This document shows positions 1,771-10,201 of a stretch of DNA of 21,360 nt, in pieces. Location: the IMG/VR virus record IMGVR_UViG_3300032053_006128, positions 1 through 21,360 of that record, one strand, 5' to 3'. The notes under the pieces are model-generated. The model was given only the letters and a program-made list of their open reading frames with translations, was not told the origin of the DNA and ran no database searches. The position numbers were made by a program, and so were the translations under genes. Within the stretch, counting starts at the first letter, position 1. The number at the start of each line of letters is the position of its first letter. This DNA comes from a virus.

Positions 1771-3930
1771 CTATTTCGCCTTGCCTGATGTTTTCAGGTC
1801 AACGTCAATACTGTCAATACTGAATGATTCATCGGTGTTTAGGTTTTTTATCACTATGGCGATTGCCCGGTCCGAAACTTTGTCCCGCATTGTGCCGGGC
1901 TGGTCGCCTGTGAAGGTCTTTGTCGCAGACGGAGTAGAATCCGCCTCGATATTGTTTATCAGTTCATCGGCGTTATCCGCACGGTGAACGTCAACGGTGA
2001 TACTGTCCGTGGCCTTGCCCGGCGTGATTGCCACTTCGCCGAGCATACCCTTTGAGCGAGTTTCCTTGCCGGACACAAAAGCACCGACCGCCGCGTAAGA
2101 TTCTATCGCTTCTTCGCTATCTCCGCCATCGTCGTCGTTTTTGACCGCCTCGTCGAATTTGCGAACAAAGCCGTCGTATCCGCCGATTAGCAGTCCCCGT
2201 TCCGATGCCTTTACAGCGTCAAAATAAAACAGGCAGGATGGATTCACTGTCCCCGCAGGGAATACGTCTGGGAATATCCCGCCCGTCCGTATATCAAGCC
2301 AGAAAGCCACACCCCACGTCCCGTCATACTGCGAAATCGAAACTTGAACGCCATACCGCTGTTTATCGAACGCCATAGTCACCCTGTCTGTCCGGCGATT
2401 CAATTCCATCGACGTTACCAGTTTCGGTAATCGCTGTTTCGTTATGTTTGTCGGCGGTTGACCTCGAAGGATAGCGTTTGAGGATAACTTGTAAATGCCG
2501 TCTGTGCCGAGGAAATACAGGTTGTTCTTGTCGTCCCAGCAATAAGAAGTAGGACTGAATACCCCTGTCACTTTCGATAAGCAAGTCAAAACACCGCCCT
2601 GCAACGGGTCACTTCGCAGTATCCATACCTCGTTGACGCACCCGAAAATCAGGTAGTGGTCTTTGTAGGAAATCATTGCTGTAATTACGTCACCGACTTC
2701 GCCCGCCCGTGAGTTTTGGCTTGACGTGGAAGCCGCAACGTCGTCCTGTGAAGAATCCCAGTCATACGGCTCGTTTACCCTTGAACAGAACCATTGATGG
2801 GGATTGAGCATTGAATTGAGGAATATCCTGCCAAAGCAAAGACAGCCGATGTTCGAGCCGCCGTCAGGGAATATCCCGCCTGTGGTTTCCAATGCCGTTT
2901 CGCTTATGCCGTAAGTTGAATTGGCGTCTGGATGGGTGCTTGCTACGTCGTCCTTGTCTAACCAGTCGGCTACGGTAATTGTGCCGGTCAAAGCCACATA
3001 ATCTGTTATCACCGCCCGACTGCCTGCGCCTGTGCCGGTCTTGACGTAAACATACCAGTTATTGAGGTAATCGTTGGTGGGATATTCGGTTGCCAAAGAC
3101 GCATCTATCAATGTTACCGGCGAAGCCCCTACCGAATCGACATCGCCCTCATAGTCGTAAGTCAATAGCGACGGTGCTGTGTCCCAAGAAAACCATCGAG
3201 GCGGAGATATTACCCCTAATATCCCTGGGGTGGATTCTGTGACGGCGACGGTAACTGCGACAGAACCCGCACCAGTCATTGACGACGCTATCGTTATCGC
3301 TGATACATTGCCTAATGTGTTTGCGAATGTTATTGTGAGTCCACCTGTTCCTGCGGAAAATATCGTTCCGCCGACCGTGACTGTGCCTATCGTCGTAAGC
3401 AGTTCAAACGCTGTTTTTATGTCTCCAGTTGAGGCGTTATATGCGATTGCCGCCGTGGTTTCGCCGCCAAAAGTCAGCGTGAAAGTGCCAGCCGTAGCCG
3501 CGATAGAAGGCGTCAAGGTCTGTATTTCGGCAATCGGAGTAGGTGTCAAGGTTGCCCCCGAATCCGCACCCGTAATCAGGTTAGTCGTGTCAAACTCCGT
3601 TTCGGTTGTCCTGTAAACCAAGTGCTGTGCCGTCGCGCCCAAGCCGATAGTTTCGGCGAAAATGGCCTGCGCCCAACTTGTCGCCTGATTGATAACTTCA
3701 CCCTTTGTGAAAACGCCCGTCACTGTTCCAACGAGAACTGTATGAAGGAAATCCAGTCTGTGATACCCTGTCGTGTCTATGTCCGATGTCCACGGTCTCC
3801 CGTCCGCAAAAAAGCACTGCTGGAATGCAGGGATAAGGGCCAAGTAGCCGTCTGTGTTGAACGTAGTGCCTGCGCCACTCAAATCGAAGCCGTGTGACTG
3901 GTCTATCAAGGTTAATGCAGGTATGGTCAT
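1771..3930 (-). CDS. Tail nozzle-like beta-propeller protein
   Basis: A 719-residue protein whose ATG starts one base after the upstream stop (TAATATG). The body (about 245-255 and 360-600) resembles propeller-type short-tail nozzle or stabilisation proteins: FGRIFLNSML (367-376), SRVNEPYDWD (383-392), GDVITAMISYKDHYLIFG (413-430) and YFLGTDGIYKL (472-482). Two apparent domain insertions are visible. Residues about 134-234 match a beta-rich domain seen in many phage structural proteins (GTFTLTFGGETTAAIAYNAS). Residues about 270-345 match a second small domain (VKTGTGAGSRAVITDY). The usual N-terminal segment (GL.EG...RPG) is absent here but found in the gene at 6435-6683. The role is likely closing the tail tube; homology to T7 gp12-type proteins is inferred from pattern only. 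Confidence 0.7.
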   Translation of the reverse strand: MTIPALTLIDQSHGFDLSGAGTTFNTDGYLALIPAFQQCFFADGRPWTSDIDTTGYHRLDFLHTVLVGTVTGVFTKGEVINQATSWAQAIFAETIGLGATAQHLVYRTTETEFDTTNLITGADSGATLTPTPIAEIQTLTPSIAATAGTFTLTFGGETTAAIAYNASTGDIKTAFELLTTIGTVTVGGTIFSAGTGGLTITFANTLGNVSAITIASSMTGAGSVAVTVAVTESTPGILGVISPPRWFSWDTAPSLLTYDYEGDVDSVGASPVTLIDASLATEYPTNDYLNNWYVYVKTGTGAGSRAVITDYVALTGTITVADWLDKDDVASTHPDANSTYGISETALETTGGIFPDGGSNIGCLCFGRIFLNSMLNPHQWFCSRVNEPYDWDSSQDDVAASTSSQNSRAGEVGDVITAMISYKDHYLIFGCVNEVWILRSDPLQGGVLTCLSKVTGVFSPTSYCWDDKNNLYFLGTDGIYKLSSNAILRGQPPTNITKQRLPKLVTSMELNRRTDRVTMAFDKQRYGVQVSISQYDGTWGVAFWLDIRTGGIFPDVFPAGTVNPSCLFYFDAVKASERGLLIGGYDGFVRKFDEAVKNDDDGGDSEEAIESYAAVGAFVSGKETRSKGMLGEVAITPGKATDSITVDVHRADNADELINNIEADSTPSATKTFTGDQPGTMRDKVSDRAIAIVIKNLNTDESFSIDSIDVDLKTSGKAK

Positions 3931-3931
3931 A

Positions 3932-4111
3932 TTACCAACCCCCTATATATATCAAGTTATTATCTGTGACTGCAATCAGTATGTTTTTGTGCCGTCCGCC
4001 TGCGCGAGTTTCAATCGGCCTTGAATCAAGCCAAGTTTTATTTTTTTCGTCCCAAAACTGGTCTGGGTCATAAGTAACTTCCCTATCAGGAATCAGTGTT
4101 AAGTCTGCCAT
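3932..4111 (-). CDS. Small tail-region protein made almost only of the AGGR/IYIGG module
   Basis: A 59-residue protein. The ATG overlaps the previous stop by one base (TAATG), and the codons for that gene's last Gly residues supply a GGGGGGA ribosome site. Almost the whole protein is one module: YDPDQFWDEKNKTWLDS (14-30), then RAGGRHKNILIAV (36-48), ending LIYIGGW. The same module closes the 266-residue protein upstream and, more divergently, the 351-residue protein. No known family is recognised. Lying among tail appendage genes, it may be a docking or capping piece of the virion; this is inference. The frame is convincing because the module is conserved between genes while the DNA is not identical. 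Confidence 0.7.
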   Translation of the reverse strand: MADLTLIPDREVTYDPDQFWDEKNKTWLDSRPIETRAGGRHKNILIAVTDNNLIYIGGW

Positions 4112-4911
4112 TACAATCCCCCCACATATATCGTTTCGCAACCGACAACGATTAAATACTCTTTTTGTCTGCCGCCTGCACGTTTGGGTAATGCTACCGA
4201 ATCAATCCACGTTTGCGTTTCCTCATCCCAGAATTTATTGGCATCGTAATCGTTTGGTCTGTAAGGGACACCGAGAGAGATGCCTGTAAATATGATGTCA
4301 TCGTAAGGAGTGCGATTTCTAACTGCCGGACTCATTGAACTTGACGCGACTGCCGCGCCAGACGGGTAAATGAAAAATACTATAATTGTGATATTTGTCA
4401 TTTCGGCGGATGCCGCAGGCGTAGCGGAAAAATACAAATACGCCCAAGCCGACGTGCCCAGAGCGGGCATTGCGGCGGCGGACGCTATTGTCGCAGACGG
4501 GAATAGCGGCGTCCTGATTATAGACGACGTAATCGCCGCCGCAGACGCTATTGTAGCCGAGATATACCTGTTTACGATAGTTGGTGCGGTCATTGCTGCC
4601 GCCGCCGCAATCGTAGCTGATATACGTTTATCGCCCCAAAGAGCAATCACGGCTGTAATCGCCGCCGCGCCAACCATTGTCGCCGATAGATACCTGTATC
4701 CCCAATACAGAACCCCGTTGGCTGTCATTGCTGAAGCCGCCGCCGGCGTGGCGGACAAATACAGATACGCCCAAGCCGAAGTCCCTCTTGCGGGCATATC
4801 GGCGGCAGACGCTATCGTGGCGGACAGGAATAACGGCGTCCTGATTATGGACGATGTTATCGCCGCCGCGCCAACCATCGTATTAACGGTCGCAGGGGTT
4901 ACGTATGCCAT
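4111..4911 (-). CDS. Repeat-containing tail protein (SAT...AAA...T repeats) with C-terminal AGGR module
   Basis: A 266-residue protein. Residues about 11-182 form eight tandem units of 18-23 residues, typically (L/I/P/F)SAT followed by IASAAA(I/M)T and a variable hydrophobic or aromatic end such as AWAYLY. A degenerate ninth unit begins at about 183. Such Ala/Ser/Thr beta-type repeats suggest an elongated fibrous appendage. A linker follows, then the C-terminal module: YDANKFWDEETQTWIDS, KRAGGRQKEYLIVV, TIYVGGL. The start lies one base after the upstream stop (TAAAATG) and has no clear ribosome site, so translation is probably coupled. Two stretches, residues about 10-57 and 119-166, are close copies at the DNA level, so the array grew by segmental duplication. 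Function unknown; probably a virion protein. Confidence 0.75.
   Translation of the reverse strand: MAYVTPATVNTMVGAAAITSSIIRTPLFLSATIASAADMPARGTSAWAYLYLSATPAAASAMTANGVLYWGYRYLSATMVGAAAITAVIALWGDKRISATIAAAAAMTAPTIVNRYISATIASAAAITSSIIRTPLFPSATIASAAAMPALGTSAWAYLYFSATPAASAEMTNITIIVFFIYPSGAAVASSSMSPAVRNRTPYDDIIFTGISLGVPYRPNDYDANKFWDEETQTWIDSVALPKRAGGRQKEYLIVVGCETIYVGGL
4412..4880. repeat. Segmental duplication, two ~142-bp copies 327 bp apart
   Basis: Plus-strand bases 4412-4553 and 4739-4880 are close direct copies offset by 327 bases (109 codons, in frame). Shared blocks include AATACGCCCAAGCCGA... and GGCGTCCTGATTAT. Differences are mostly silent or conservative, so the protein repeats are maintained. 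The intervening part holds further, more divergent units of the same repeat family. Confidence 0.85.
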
Positions 4912-4912
4912 T

Positions 4913-5359
4913 TTACGTCAACGTCAATTTAAGTGTTCCGGCAAGAATCTTGACCTGTTGACCTACTGTTACGGCGGTTGAGGTGCAGGAAGCCGCAGCG
5001 ATACACCGTCCCGAGAGCGCAAGCGTATCGTCAAAGATGCAAATATAAGTAATGTTCGCAGGGTAGTTTGAACCTGCACAAACAGCAAACTCTATATCTG
5101 CCGCATTGACAACCTGTGTCGGCGCGGTAGCCGATACCGTCCATCCTGTCGCCCTTGCAACCGCTATGCGGGCATAGGCACTCACGGCAAACGTCGGCTC
5201 AGTAATACCATTGAGTGTCCCTGTTTCCTCTGTGGGGGTAGCTGAGGACAAACCCACCCACAAATTTGTTGCATCGGGCATCGTTAGTCCCGTTGTGGTA
5301 AAAACGTGCTTCAATATCAAATCCTCAAAAACATCTGTAAAACCTACTATTGTTGCCAT
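4913..5359 (-). CDS. Tail fibre-associated structural protein
   Basis: A 148-residue protein with ATG preceded by AAAGGATTCAAA. The pattern is a familiar small phage structural family: an N-terminal FEDLILKHVF (11-20), then LWVGLSSATPTEETGT, YARIAVARATGW, a central AADIEF, a DD turn in CIFDDTLALSGR, and a C-terminal GQQVKILAGTLKLTLT. Family members are usually encoded beside tail fibres and are annotated as tail or virion proteins. It is full length for the family and probably an all-beta fold. It lies in a run of appendage genes and is followed one base later by the repeat protein, suggesting coordinated expression. Precise role in the virion is not known. Confidence 0.7.
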   Translation of the reverse strand: MATIVGFTDVFEDLILKHVFTTTGLTMPDATNLWVGLSSATPTEETGTLNGITEPTFAVSAYARIAVARATGWTVSATAPTQVVNAADIEFAVCAGSNYPANITYICIFDDTLALSGRCIAAASCTSTAVTVGQQVKILAGTLKLTLT

Positions 5360-5371
5360 TTTGAATCCTTT

Positions 5372-6427
5372 CTATGCCTGTCTGATATAAATAGTTTTGT
5401 GCGAAACGGCCACTAAATAACTTGTGTGTCTGCCGCCACCAGCCGTTGTTATGTCGCCGTTATAGTCCACAGCATCGGGGTCAGTGTCGCCGTCGGTATT
5501 TGGCGGACGGTCGCCGCCATCACCGCCTGAATCTTCCCAAAAAACATTGAACGTCCAAACATCGCCCGTCGTTGTCCCATTGTCATTGAAAGCGTCAACT
5601 CGCCAAGCGTAATTTGAACCAGCCGTGTAGTAGTTGTCGTTATTGACCTGTTTGGCCGTCGCTGTAACTTGCGCGGCGGTCATATTTCCGCCTATCTGAA
5701 CCAAACTCATCGAGGTATGACCAAAAAATAATCTGAAACCCTCTGCGTAATTCGGTTCGAGTTTTCCGGGGTCAACCCATTCCAGTCCTGCGCTGCCTTG
5801 AACATTTAACGTCCCACTTGCAGGGGTAACGCAATCTGGCTTTTCGGGTAATACAGGAAGGCCGTAAACCTCAAAAAGCATAGCGAATCCACTGATTACG
5901 TTTCCGTAGTGATTCGCACTTGAATACACCATATTTTCCACAAATATCCCCAGCGGGCAAGAATCAGTGGAATCACCTGCTGAATAAGTTGAGCTGGCTA
6001 CAAATCCAGGGGGGACGTAAGATGGCTCATACGACACATAAATAGCATATTCTTTCCCAATTTCAACATCTACCGAAGCGTCAAGCGTAAACTCTGTCAA
6101 AGTCACCGTTGCTGGTTGTGGCGGGGCTTGTGGCAATGAAATACTACTTACGGTTGCGGTCGCCAAAGCAGAGCCAGTCGGCTGATGATTTACATCGCAC
6201 TCTTTTATGACAACCACGATGTCGTGTTGTCCATTTGAATCCTGAAAATACAAGCCCAACTTCACAGAAGTGATGCTGTGATTTGATTGAGCGATTATTG
6301 TTTGGTAAAAATCGAAACGGACAAGACCGACTTCCGGCGACTCACCGTAAGACAAGTTGCCGTATCCGTTGCCGTGTGGATTCCATACCGGCGAAGTGTC
6401 CCAATGTTCAAACAACGTACCAGACAT
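5372..6427 (-). CDS. Multidomain beta-sandwich tail protein with Fn3-like domain and divergent AGGR module
   Basis: A 351-residue protein with ATG preceded by AGAGGAAAT. Residues about 1-190 look like a jelly-roll or carbohydrate-binding beta-sandwich (GLVRFDFYQ, HDIVVVIKECD, EIGKEYAIYVSYEP). Residues about 193-300 resemble a fibronectin type III or Ig-like domain, with PASGTLNV, LEWVDP and YAWRVDAFNDNG. An acidic linker rich in Asp and Gly (about 301-330) leads to AGGGRHTSYLVAV and a final TIYIRQA, a divergent copy of the C-terminal module in the next two non-fibre genes. The likely role is a surface appendage that may bind sugars. Fold assignments are by eye. Confidence 0.65.
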   Translation of the reverse strand: MSGTLFEHWDTSPVWNPHGNGYGNLSYGESPEVGLVRFDFYQTIIAQSNHSITSVKLGLYFQDSNGQHDIVVVIKECDVNHQPTGSALATATVSSISLPQAPPQPATVTLTEFTLDASVDVEIGKEYAIYVSYEPSYVPPGFVASSTYSAGDSTDSCPLGIFVENMVYSSANHYGNVISGFAMLFEVYGLPVLPEKPDCVTPASGTLNVQGSAGLEWVDPGKLEPNYAEGFRLFFGHTSMSLVQIGGNMTAAQVTATAKQVNNDNYYTAGSNYAWRVDAFNDNGTTTGDVWTFNVFWEDSGGDGGDRPPNTDGDTDPDAVDYNGDITTAGGGRHTSYLVAVSHKTIYIRQA

Positions 6428-6434
6428 ATTTCCT

Positions 6435-6683
6435 CTATGGCGTTACCGCCGGGATGAAGGTCGAAGTTACTTGCGCGCAAAAAAGTATTGGATGGGCAGT
6501 TGCCCCATCGAGGCCGCATTGGGTCGAGTATTGCTTGGTCGTACCGGGCCGCTGGCCGCCAGTGAGGCGCTCGTTCTCTACTGAAAAAGCGCGGCAGTTC
6601 CGTAACAGAAATGCTGTCCGGTCTGGTTGTGTCGAGGACGGCAAACCCTCATTAAGCCCCTGAATTGGGAACGATATTCTCAT
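6435..6683 (-). CDS. Small protein resembling the N-terminal segment of nozzle proteins
   Basis: An 82-residue protein with ATG preceded by AAAGGGGG four bases away. Its core, GLNEGLPSSTQPD (9-21), LRNCRAFSVENERL (27-40) and GGQRPGTTKQY (42-52), matches the segment that normally opens beta-propeller nozzle or stabilisation proteins of short-tailed phages: a GL..G start, a central N.R and a GGxRPG turn. The large nozzle-like gene at 1771-3930 lacks this segment. It may therefore act as a separately made nozzle subunit or latch; that is inference. The stop (TAG) lies seven bases before the next ATG. Confidence 0.6.
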   Translation of the reverse strand: MRISFPIQGLNEGLPSSTQPDRTAFLLRNCRAFSVENERLTGGQRPGTTKQYSTQCGLDGATAHPILFCAQVTSTFIPAVTP

Positions 6684-7026: not shown

Positions 7027-8241
7027 TTAGGCCGCAACGACGGTCGCGCCTGCAATCATTGGTTTATACCGAATGTAGAAGTCAATATCGCCTGTTTTGG
7101 CTGTTCCGCCCGCGTTCACCGCCGCAAGTTCAAGCGAACCGGTAGGCAGTAGCAATCTCGGTGCAGGCATACCCAAAGCCACGCCGTTTGCTGTAATCAC
7201 CAAATCAGCCGCCACAACGCCCGCCCAAGTGATAATTGTGCCGATTGCGGCGGCGTTCATTTCAACCGCCGTTCCGTCTGTCCCGAAAACAGTATCGCCT
7301 GCGGGCGAAGTCGGGTCCATACTGTAATTGATAAGGCAACTTGCGCCTTGAATCGCCGTCTTGACTATACCGACCAATTCAACTACCTGTATCAGACCGG
7401 AAATCACAAACAGGTTTTGTAGTCCGTGCGCAATACCGACAAGTGATTTTACCGCACATTTTTCGTCCATTCCGCCGCCTGTGTATATGTTGTTTTCCAT
7501 ACTCATACTGCTCTCCTTTTTTGCGATTGTTTCAGCTATCCACGACACCCCACTCGTCATTGTTCCATTCAAAGCCGATTCTGTATCGGTCGAGAATACG
7601 TATTTAGTGCCAGAGGGATTTCCTGACCCTTCGTTCAAATTCATATACCAACAGTCAACGCCAAGCGAATTCACAAATGTCTTGTCAAATGTTGTACCTG
7701 CGCCATCATTGTAAATCTGCCCTATTTCCGCCTCTGATAACACTTTTTTGGCAATAAGAACATTGCCGAGTGTTCCCGAAAATGGAAATTGAAACGCTGG
7801 AGGTAACGCAGTATCGCGCCATTCCATTCCAATATAAAAACCCGTAGTATTAGAAATAGAGCCATCAGTCGTTATCGCACCAGTATCAGTGGCCGCTGTT
7901 AAAACGGAATCAATATACAGAGAAACAGTCTTTGTTGCCCTATTAACAGTCCAGCAATAAAAATGATTTGTCTCAGAAGTATATGCCGTATCGTGGTATC
8001 CAAAATTTATACTACTTACAGCATAAACAAAACTAAGGTAATATGTTCCGCCACTTAAAAATGTTTCTAAATACCAACCTTTCCAGTTAATATTCAACAA
8101 ATCAAATAGACAATAAGTTCCCGTGGGAATAGAACCGTAAAAACATAAACTGAAATCGCTCGTTGCCATATTGAACGCATCGTCGTTGCCTATATCAATA
8201 TGTCCGTCAATGCCATTAAACTGAAGGCGGCTAATAGACAT
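7027..8241 (-). CDS. LamG/concanavalin-like lectin protein fused to a second module
   Basis: A 404-residue frame. The ATG lies two bases after the adaptor stop, so translation is probably coupled. Residues about 1-215 are a LamG or laminin-G-like jelly roll: MSISRLQFNGIDGHIDIGN at the start, WTVNRATKTVSLYIDS (an R..K..LYIDG-type strand) and GTLGNVLIAKKVLSEAEI with YNDG near the end. Such domains bind glycans and are common on phage appendages. Residues about 246-404 are a different module of Ala, Val, Gly and Ile-rich beta type that I do not recognise. The junction IAKKESSMSM is a translated ribosome site followed by two in-frame ATGs, so the second module may also be made alone or may once have been a separate gene. 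Confidence 0.7.
   Translation of the reverse strand: MSISRLQFNGIDGHIDIGNDDAFNMATSDFSLCFYGSIPTGTYCLFDLLNINWKGWYLETFLSGGTYYLSFVYAVSSINFGYHDTAYTSETNHFYCWTVNRATKTVSLYIDSVLTAATDTGAITTDGSISNTTGFYIGMEWRDTALPPAFQFPFSGTLGNVLIAKKVLSEAEIGQIYNDGAGTTFDKTFVNSLGVDCWYMNLNEGSGNPSGTKYVFSTDTESALNGTMTSGVSWIAETIAKKESSMSMENNIYTGGGMDEKCAVKSLVGIAHGLQNLFVISGLIQVVELVGIVKTAIQGASCLINYSMDPTSPAGDTVFGTDGTAVEMNAAAIGTIITWAGVVAADLVITANGVALGMPAPRLLLPTGSLELAAVNAGGTAKTGDIDFYIRYKPMIAGATVVAA
7498..7518 (-). promoter_or_regulatory. Strong internal ribosome binding site in frame inside the LamG gene
   Basis: On the minus strand AAAAGGAG (7520-7513) is followed six bases later by ATG (7506) and a second ATG (7500). Both are in frame with the LamG frame. 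This is one of the strongest ribosome sites in the window and would direct a 159-residue C-terminal product (7027-7506). Confidence 0.65.
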
Positions 8242-8243
8242 AA

Positions 8244-9254
8244 TCAGTAAGTGATTCCTTTGTAAATAGGGTGACACTGGTTGTTTTGCCGGTCGAATCG
8301 GGTCGAAGCGTATGCGTCGCTGTTGTCGCCGTTGTAGCCAAGATACTCGATTCCAAGCTGTTTTTTGTCCGCCTGGATACTCGCAGTCAATCGGCTGATA
8401 AAATACTTCATCTGAACGCCGGTCGCCCGTTTGTCGTCGTCCTGCATTTCCGCCATAGCCAAACAACTGGCCTCTAACGTCTCTGCGTGGATTGCCCCGC
8501 CGTAAGGGTGCGTTACCGTGGTCGTTACAAGTGCCGATGGCAGAATGACCTTCTTGTATTCGAGCGTGAACGCTTCGTCCGGGGCAGGCCAGAAGATAAT
8601 CTCAAATCGCTGTCCGGTCGTGGTCGTTGTCTGCTCTTTTGGCCTGATTGCCGCAAATTCCGGGTCAGTAGCCGATGTTGATGGCTCAGAAGCCCGCAAA
8701 CGCCTGATTTCACCTTCGCCGACAAGCCGTATCGGTGCTTTTGAGTTTGCGTCATTGACGAACGTGATATTGCCTTCAATGCCGCCGAAGTCGTCCGGCA
8801 AGTCGTAATTCGCATCGTGTTCCAGCACAAAGGTTTCTGCCGTTTCTGTTGCCTCTGTCCAATCCGCGGACAATTCAATCTGTGAATCGCTCGTCCGTGA
8901 GGCAATCTCGTATTCGGCGTTATTGACTACCAAAGTGCCGTGAGTAGCCGTCCACGACGGCCATACGCCAGTTGTAAGCGTTACAGTCGTCCCTGTTATC
9001 ACAACCGCTATCGTGCCGGTCGAATAAGGTGCAATCGTCGTCAGTTGACAGACGGGCTTCAGGAAACTCCACTGATACGGCGGCTCCTGCCCTATTGGCG
9101 GCGGGAAGTAAAACTGCCGCAAGCCCTTCTTGATAATCTTGTCAACCTTATCTTCTTCGGTCGATGAGCAGCCGGTGTAGTTGGTTAAACCCAAATACTC
9201 CGCAACAGCGTCGCGTAACTCTGTAATTGTCGTCGCAAGTGTGCTTTCAGCCAT
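8244..9254 (-). CDS. Head-tail adaptor-like protein
   Basis: A 336-residue protein with ATG preceded by GAGGCGAAAT. The N-terminal 50 residues look helical (ELRDAVAEYLGL, DKVDKIIKKGLRQFYFPPP). A beta domain follows: GVWPSWTATHGTLVVNNA, ELSADWTEA, the signature YDLPDDFGGIEG (about 155-166), FEIIFWPAPDEAFTLEYKK, and a C-terminal helical region with AETLEASCLAMAE. This order (helical start, LPDDF, WP.P......YR/K) is typical of phage adaptor or tail-tube proteins that sit under the portal in podoviruses. It is the first gene of the tail block and overlaps functionally with the nozzle-like gene. Exact family not confirmed. Confidence 0.65.
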   Translation of the reverse strand: MAESTLATTITELRDAVAEYLGLTNYTGCSSTEEDKVDKIIKKGLRQFYFPPPIGQEPPYQWSFLKPVCQLTTIAPYSTGTIAVVITGTTVTLTTGVWPSWTATHGTLVVNNAEYEIASRTSDSQIELSADWTEATETAETFVLEHDANYDLPDDFGGIEGNITFVNDANSKAPIRLVGEGEIRRLRASEPSTSATDPEFAAIRPKEQTTTTTGQRFEIIFWPAPDEAFTLEYKKVILPSALVTTTVTHPYGGAIHAETLEASCLAMAEMQDDDKRATGVQMKYFISRLTASIQADKKQLGIEYLGYNGDNSDAYASTRFDRQNNQCHPIYKGITY

Positions 9255-9263
9255 ATTTCGCCT

Positions 9264-9785
9264 CTATGTATCAATTTCCATTTCTGGCATTTTGTAAACC
9301 TTGCCGCCGCTTTCAACATCGTAAACGTCGCTGCCTTTTTTCGGCAGGCCGACAATTACGCCCTTCACAATCTCGTCGTCCAAGAAAATCTCAACCTCTT
9401 GACCCATTGACAGACCTGTAACCGGCTCGGGGGCGGGTTTCTTTGCCTTCGGCTCTGGGGTTTCCTCTACTACCGGTGCATCGGCAGGGTCAGTTTCAAC
9501 TTGGGGCATCGTAGGCGGTTGCACGTCCAGTTCGTCGATTTTGGCCTGCATTTCGGGGGCAATAGCAGTTATTCGCTGAAAAGTCATCGTCTCCACGTCA
9601 AAACCGCACCGCAAAGCAATCTGCACCAAGTCGAACGGGCTTAAAACGCCGTCCACCTTATCCACCAGCTTCTTCACGGACAACCATTCTTGCACTAAGA
9701 AATCGGGCAGTTCCTTCAACCCCAACATCCTACAATACATCTCTTTTGTTACTGCGCTCATCTTTTCGCTAAGCTCTATTGTCAT
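9264..9785 (-). CDS. Putative head-completion protein, helical N-domain plus C-terminal barrel
   Basis: A 173-residue protein with a strong GAAGGAG site eight bases before ATG. The N-domain (about 10-85) is helical: MLGLKELPDFL, then FDLVQIALRCGFD. A Pro, Glu and Ala-rich linker spans about 89-122. The C-terminal domain (about 125-173), GQEVEIFLDDEIVKGVIVG followed by VYDVESGGKVYKMP, resembles a small SH3, Tudor or KOW-type barrel. The N-domain is related to the whole of the 73-residue protein at 10228-10449. No function is recognised. Its position between head-associated proteins and the adaptor suggests a structural or assembly role, which is inference. Confidence 0.6.
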   Translation of the reverse strand: MTIELSEKMSAVTKEMYCRMLGLKELPDFLVQEWLSVKKLVDKVDGVLSPFDLVQIALRCGFDVETMTFQRITAIAPEMQAKIDELDVQPPTMPQVETDPADAPVVEETPEPKAKKPAPEPVTGLSMGQEVEIFLDDEIVKGVIVGLPKKGSDVYDVESGGKVYKMPEMEIDT

Positions 9786-9817
9786 TTTTTTAACTCCTTC
9801 ATTTGGGTTTTATTGTT

Positions 9818-10201
9818 TTATCCCACCAACCGTAATTGCCCGCCACTTCCGGCATTTTTGCTCAGATTGCATCGTAAATGAGCCGCTTGGACGTTTATGG
9901 GTGAATCGCTACCACCCTTAGAAAGCGGGACGATGTGGTCTATGCTTTTCGAGCGGGGGTGCGGATACTTCAATCGCTTGTTGATTTTCCGTCCGCAAAT
10001 CCCGCAAACCCATCCATCTCGGTCGAAAACGCAACTGTCAAGATATTGCTCGTGGCGAGCCCCTCGCTTTACCGCTCTGTGTTTACGATTCCCTGCCTTT
10101 ATCTTTTCTGGATTAGCGAGAGCGTATTCCTTTACTGCTTTTAACACCGATTCTCTATTAACCAGATAGTACGCCTTTTGTTTTTCTTTATTCCAACTCA
10201 C
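9818..10201 (-). CDS. HNH endonuclease (probably free-standing homing type)
   Basis: A 127-residue protein with a GTG start and AAAGGAATACAAAACA before it. The N-terminus is basic and helical, typical of phage HNH proteins (NPEKIKAGNRKHRAVKRG). The nuclease domain spans about 57-115: a zinc CxxC (WVCGICGRK, C66 and C69), the catalytic DH (SIDHIVPLSKGG, H89), the HNH Asn (N103) and the closing AHLRCNLSK (H108, C111). All key residues appear intact. It lies between two related small genes of the structural block, not with other nucleases, so it is best read as a selfish or homing gene. A packaging-associated HNH is the alternative, but such genes usually sit beside the terminase. Confidence 0.85.
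   Translation of the reverse strand: MSWNKEKQKAYYLVNRESVLKAVKEYALANPEKIKAGNRKHRAVKRGARHEQYLDSCVFDRDGWVCGICGRKINKRLKYPHPRSKSIDHIVPLSKGGSDSPINVQAAHLRCNLSKNAGSGGQLRLVG

Follow-up and report, generated by a model that had tools for sequence, protein, structure and literature searches.

In an uncultured short-tailed phage, a small C-terminal module shared by neighboring tail proteins probably supplies, in trans, a beta-hairpin that is missing from a nozzle encoded in pieces, and the appendages bearing it would plug into one docking site. The stretch of DNA that we analyzed (hereafter the window) is a 21,360-base record of an uncultured virus whose late genes, including the one that encodes the terminase large subunit, are located on the minus strand. 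It encodes a nozzle split into an N-terminal piece (N-piece) and a body, with the genes of the tagged proteins lying between them. The features considered here are the following:

1771-3930, minus strand: body of the split nozzle (P0004), 719 aa, beta-propeller and C-terminal platform (family profile versus intact nozzle L046, E 2e-42)
3932-4111, minus strand: P1, 59 aa, module-only protein (translation; window-excluded module HMM, E 3e-14)
3935-4075, minus strand: module of P1, residues 13-59 (module HMM match 13-57)
4111-4911, minus strand: P2, 266 aa, SATIASAAAMTA-type repeats and C-terminal module (translation; window-excluded HMM, E 2e-13)
4114-4251, minus strand: module of P2, residues 221-266 (module HMM match 221-265)
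4913-5359, minus strand: GP4 gp80-like fiber I protein, among the tag genes, without the module (Pfam PF23140, E 3.3e-17, 63.5 bits versus a cut-off of 27)
5372-6427, minus strand: P3, 351 aa, beta-sandwich/FN3-like head and C-terminal module (translation; window-excluded HMM, E 5e-7)
5375-5458, minus strand: module of P3, residues 324-351 (module HMM match 324-349)
6435-6683, minus strand: N-piece, 82 aa, N-terminal (platform) part of the split nozzle (homology to the N-terminus of intact nozzles)
8244-9254, minus strand: adaptor, the head-tail connector on which the nozzle would dock (Pfam PF24175, SU10_adaptor, E 8.7e-11)

Three neighboring proteins share a C-terminal module

A first-pass annotation of this DNA had described three ORFs whose products (P1, P2 and P3) end alike. 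Re-translation gave the same coordinates and reading frames, and the common module is borne out both by pairwise identity and by a profile built from 48 module sequences that all come from other genomes, the window being excluded. P1 and P2 are 48% identical over 52 residues (E 1e-14), and the P1/P3 and P2/P3 pairs show 47-50% identity across 19-24 residues (E 4e-4 and 3e-3). The window-excluded profile gives 49, 46 and 26 bits to P1, P2 and P3, respectively, with maxima of 12, 6 and 9 bits for 1000 shuffles of each; none of the remaining ORFs of the window, on either strand, falls below E 0.015. The module comprises about 25-45 residues, the last 22 or so of which follow the pattern GGR....LVVVG..gxIYFG. 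As the annotation had also pointed out, a YD..xFWDExxxTWxDS stretch is found in P1 and P2 only, P3 being devoid of the WDE..TW part. Its statement that no named family has this pattern agrees with our searches of Pfam and PHROGs, in which no family covers the module. The ATG of P1 overlaps the stop codon of P2 (TAATG). The head of P2 (4111-4911) is made of degenerate repeats of about 20 residues (SATIASAAAMTA...), which are not picked up as tandem repeats in the DNA.

The module is confined to one interval of related genomes

Relatives of the nozzle body P0004 (1771-3930) were found in many IMG/VR contigs, and in all those with a complete interval, the genes preceding the body carry the same terminal module. 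In total, 50 C-terminal copies were counted in 23 distinct genomes (window included), with two or three copies per genome; three of them, one each in L021, L027 and L070, have weak profile scores. This answers in the affirmative the question, raised by the first-pass annotation, of whether a profile would find similar C-termini in other phage appendage genes. All 50 modules are located between a gene encoding an N-piece of about 77 residues and the gene of the nozzle body, and a same-strand search outside this interval, in the available sequence of the 23 genomes, found no C-terminal module. In cultured phages, searches with the nozzle body, an intact nozzle and a consensus module gave no related matches, and scans of genome contigs with the N-piece and the body gave no matches.

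The heads of the tagged proteins vary, being FN3/Ig-like, Laminin-G, PASTA or repeats, and some of the proteins have none. Further module-only genes are found in L010, L016, L020 (two), L027, L033 and L070, and the L004 protein encoded at 9524-10000 resembles P3 in both head and tag. In L011 and L045, tagged proteins have Laminin-G domains as their heads; the same domain type occurs in a window protein (7027-8241; PF13385, E 9e-7) encoded between the adaptor and the N-piece. Many relatives, but not the window, also encode a small Lys/Glu-rich protein, often with an end like '...GASGSDLAELQKRFGKK', whose gene separates the last tag gene from that of the nozzle body (L003 9563-10000; L005 3854-4258; L012 2711-2941; L024 6756-7001; L028 6624-7001).

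In L071, three neighboring proteins are 77-87% identical over their C-terminal 30 residues, with heads that are only 22-28% identical. These tags are under purifying selection, with dN of 0.12-0.18 and dS of 0.9-2.8, values that are rough for such a short stretch. Near-identical tags behind divergent heads suggest one shared partner, this being the pattern expected if three appendages fit a single one. Together with the 50 tagged proteins and their varied heads, the L071 tags support the proposal of the first-pass annotation that the module is a common docking tag by which different appendages share one site. In L071 (6338-8533), the nozzle body is itself preceded, in the same protein, by a DUF4082-like N-terminal head and a linker of Ser/Pro repeats, another way to attach a head at the same place.

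The nozzle is split into an N-piece and a body

The N-piece is a separate ORF in all split genomes. Its family HMM (A1) matches the intact nozzle L046 (E 7.5e-15), and hhalign places it on columns 5-86 of the alignment of intact nozzles (E 4e-18), while the N-terminus of the body aligns with columns 113-142 (E 3e-6). In eight distinct distant phages (L046, L048, L049, L053, L054, L055, L059 and L061), both parts are found within one ORF. The model of the intact L061 protein (pLDDT 84, pTM 0.84) matches the nozzles of Pa223, VP1, P22, Sf6, SU10, T7 and GP4 over essentially its own full length (E 4e-20 to 3e-12), with a TM-score of 0.76 for Pa223, and L061 also matches PHROG 578 (head closure Hc3). 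A model of the L004 split body, although of lower quality, retrieves with Foldseek the SU10 nozzle (3.5e-12) and those of Pa223, VP1 and T7 (gp12). These matches indicate the platform and the presumably seven-bladed beta-propeller of a nozzle. The SU10_adaptor gene (8244-9254) is located upstream of both pieces on the same strand, so that they lie downstream of the adaptor in the tail block, as a nozzle does. Since the two halves belong to one ORF in distant phages and the intact and body models match nozzles, the window protein is a nozzle in two parts, the N-piece (6435-6683) and the body (1771-3930), which flank the tag genes. Instead of a single polypeptide, it is encoded by two ORFs that are about 2.5 kb apart in the window. 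As the split is common to 23 contigs, we discarded a sequencing or assembly error as its cause.

Residues 134-230 or so of the window body (1771-3930) form an inserted stretch that matches tail proteins of another phage in the PDB (9d93 chains, E 7e-12); it is missing in most relatives, and a similar one was seen by eye in L045.

A hairpin is missing where the tag genes are located

Columns 88-113 or so of the intact alignment (about 26 residues) are absent from both the N-piece and the body. In the L061 model, this segment is a confidently predicted beta-hairpin (strands 93-99 and 102-106) that belongs to the first part of the propeller and is preceded by a loop (74-90) of low model confidence. 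In the nozzles of L046, L048, L049, L052-L055 and L058-L060, the loop contains, directly before the hairpin, a large insert that is some hundreds of residues long. Hence, the order N-piece, extra domain, hairpin and body in one chain is the same as the order N-piece, head, module and body in the separate genes of the split genomes. The tag genes are found precisely where this segment is missing, the position expected if the module is the hairpin; this location names a probable docking site, which the first-pass annotation had not done. In L004, only a single TAA separates the last tag gene from the body, with which it shares the reading frame. Split bodies also have about 100 residues after the first hairpin that are not found in L061, and their propeller may therefore differ in other respects.

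Proposed mechanism and alternative explanations

Podophage nozzles are hexamers that sit on a dodecameric adaptor. In the mechanism that we propose, the nozzle would be assembled from pieces encoded separately: the N-piece, two or three appendage proteins and the body. The putative C-terminal hairpin of each appendage, similar in pattern to the missing one, would insert into the open blade of the N-piece and body by strand complementation. This insertion would both complete the nozzle and hold the appendage at the position at which the nozzle chain of other phages contains inserted domains. An intact nozzle can accommodate a single hairpin per subunit; the two or three tags would therefore have to share, or compete for, equivalent sites of a putatively hexameric nozzle ring, and module-only proteins such as P1 would act as blank plugs, occupying sites that carry no appendage. 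More tentatively, and with slightly less than even odds in our judgment, this may amount to a multi-gene propeller, each subunit of which needs one competing appendage or a blank plug, leading to combinatorial tails from one genome. However, all genomes examined keep at least two tags, which counts against the supply of a hairpin in trans, as this reading leaves it unaccounted for.

Because propeller hairpins look alike, the argument for the hairpin in trans is positional, and we do not claim direct sequence homology between tag and hairpin. Profile-profile comparison of the two with hhalign was not significant (P about 0.1), the full module scored best at a different propeller blade (P 0.011) without any support from column shuffles, and windowed HMM scores, likewise non-significant, ranked the hairpin first in two of 12 intact nozzles (L048 and L056). 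Furthermore, when L004 was modeled with AlphaFold2 as a tag-body read-through of the stop codon, from a shallow alignment, the tag was left unplaced with a pLDDT below 50. The non-significant homology would also fit a tag that is an ordinary peptide ligand, bound to the outside of the nozzle, to the adaptor or to the gp80-like fiber, the propeller not being completed and the hairpin being simply lost. Other data point in this direction, namely the extra WDE..TW part of the module, which has no clear counterpart in intact nozzles, and the gp80-like gene found among the tag genes of the window and L002 (Pfam), with similar ones seen by eye in L024 and L035. In SU10, the short fibers attach at blade 1 of the nozzle, to a dock loop that bears tryptophan (PMC9509320), and the tryptophans of the WDE..TW part may recall this loop, a likeness that we take only as a lead. 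We nevertheless consider such an outside ligand unlikely: it does not account for the fact that, in each of the 23 genomes, the tag genes lie precisely where the segment is missing, and fails to say why the inserts of intact nozzles end at the hairpin.

The first-pass annotation had also evoked a capping or assembly role, and the module could be a folding, trimerization or chaperone-recognition tag of the appendages that is not linked to the nozzle. It is indeed C-terminal, common to unrelated heads and also found alone as a small protein (P1), but on that strand of the available sequence it was not found outside the interval between N-piece and body, despite other likely appendage genes downstream of the body, which makes this role quite improbable. 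The variable copy number and the module-only genes might even suggest functionless leftovers from tandem duplications of a nozzle segment. This appears very improbable for tags that are intact and end a few residues from the stop codon in 23 divergent genomes and that, in L071, show dN far below dS (0.12-0.18 versus 0.9-2.8).

Comparison with known systems

Nozzles with domains inserted in the propeller have been described in SU10 (PMC9509320), T7 (PMC6702177) and crAss001 (PMC10172136). N-piece, hairpin and body together correspond to one such podophage nozzle protein (T7 gp12, P22 gp10/Hc3, SU10 gp17 or the crAss001 gp44 muzzle). In contrast to these, the nozzle considered here is in at least two pieces, and the domain plus hairpin is carried by two or three separate paralogous genes. 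The tagged proteins also resemble receptor-binding proteins in having one conserved module, varied heads and several kinds per virion, as described for N-terminal tailspike anchors (PMC12692247) and for the branched tailspikes of Ackermannviridae (PMC11414711). Whereas the conserved anchors of such proteins are N-terminal, the module is always C-terminal, has only about 25-45 residues, can be a gene of its own and appears to be part of the receiving structure. The window protein encoded at 4913-5359 is a member of the GP4 gp80 fiber I family (PF23140) and, unlike the tagged appendages among which it is encoded, lacks the module.

Another likeness is with the genes in pieces of T4-type phages that are attributed to free-standing homing endonucleases (PMC2988022), which share with the nozzle a split gene in conserved order. 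Endonuclease VII-type genes are located between the nozzle pieces in L005 (2003-2479), L006 (4852-5457) and L027 (6486-7013). By contrast, there is no endonuclease gene between the nozzle pieces of the window (1771-6683), where the space between them holds appendage genes that seemingly encode a portion of the split protein. The late region of the group contains dispersed free-standing HNH/endonuclease VII genes, for instance at 9818-10201 in the window. Homing endonucleases are thus weak markers of split sites, since such genes separate the pieces in L005, L006 and L027 but occur elsewhere too.

In the open-access literature, we found no paper on a nozzle in pieces that is completed by appendage tags. 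Nozzles, inserted domains, anchor modules and split genes are all of known kinds; their combination is new. This analysis describes a module for which Pfam and PHROGs have no model and offers an explanation for the existence of small module-only genes. Moreover, the sequence rule N-piece, tagged genes and body can serve to spot appendage genes with unrecognizable heads in uncultured phages. Phages are known to exchange their receptor-binding heads while the anchor stays constant. If the proposed mechanism is true, the anchor would here be the very part that the channel protein lacks, tail completion would be tied to appendage loading and several heads for one site would be provided by a single genome.
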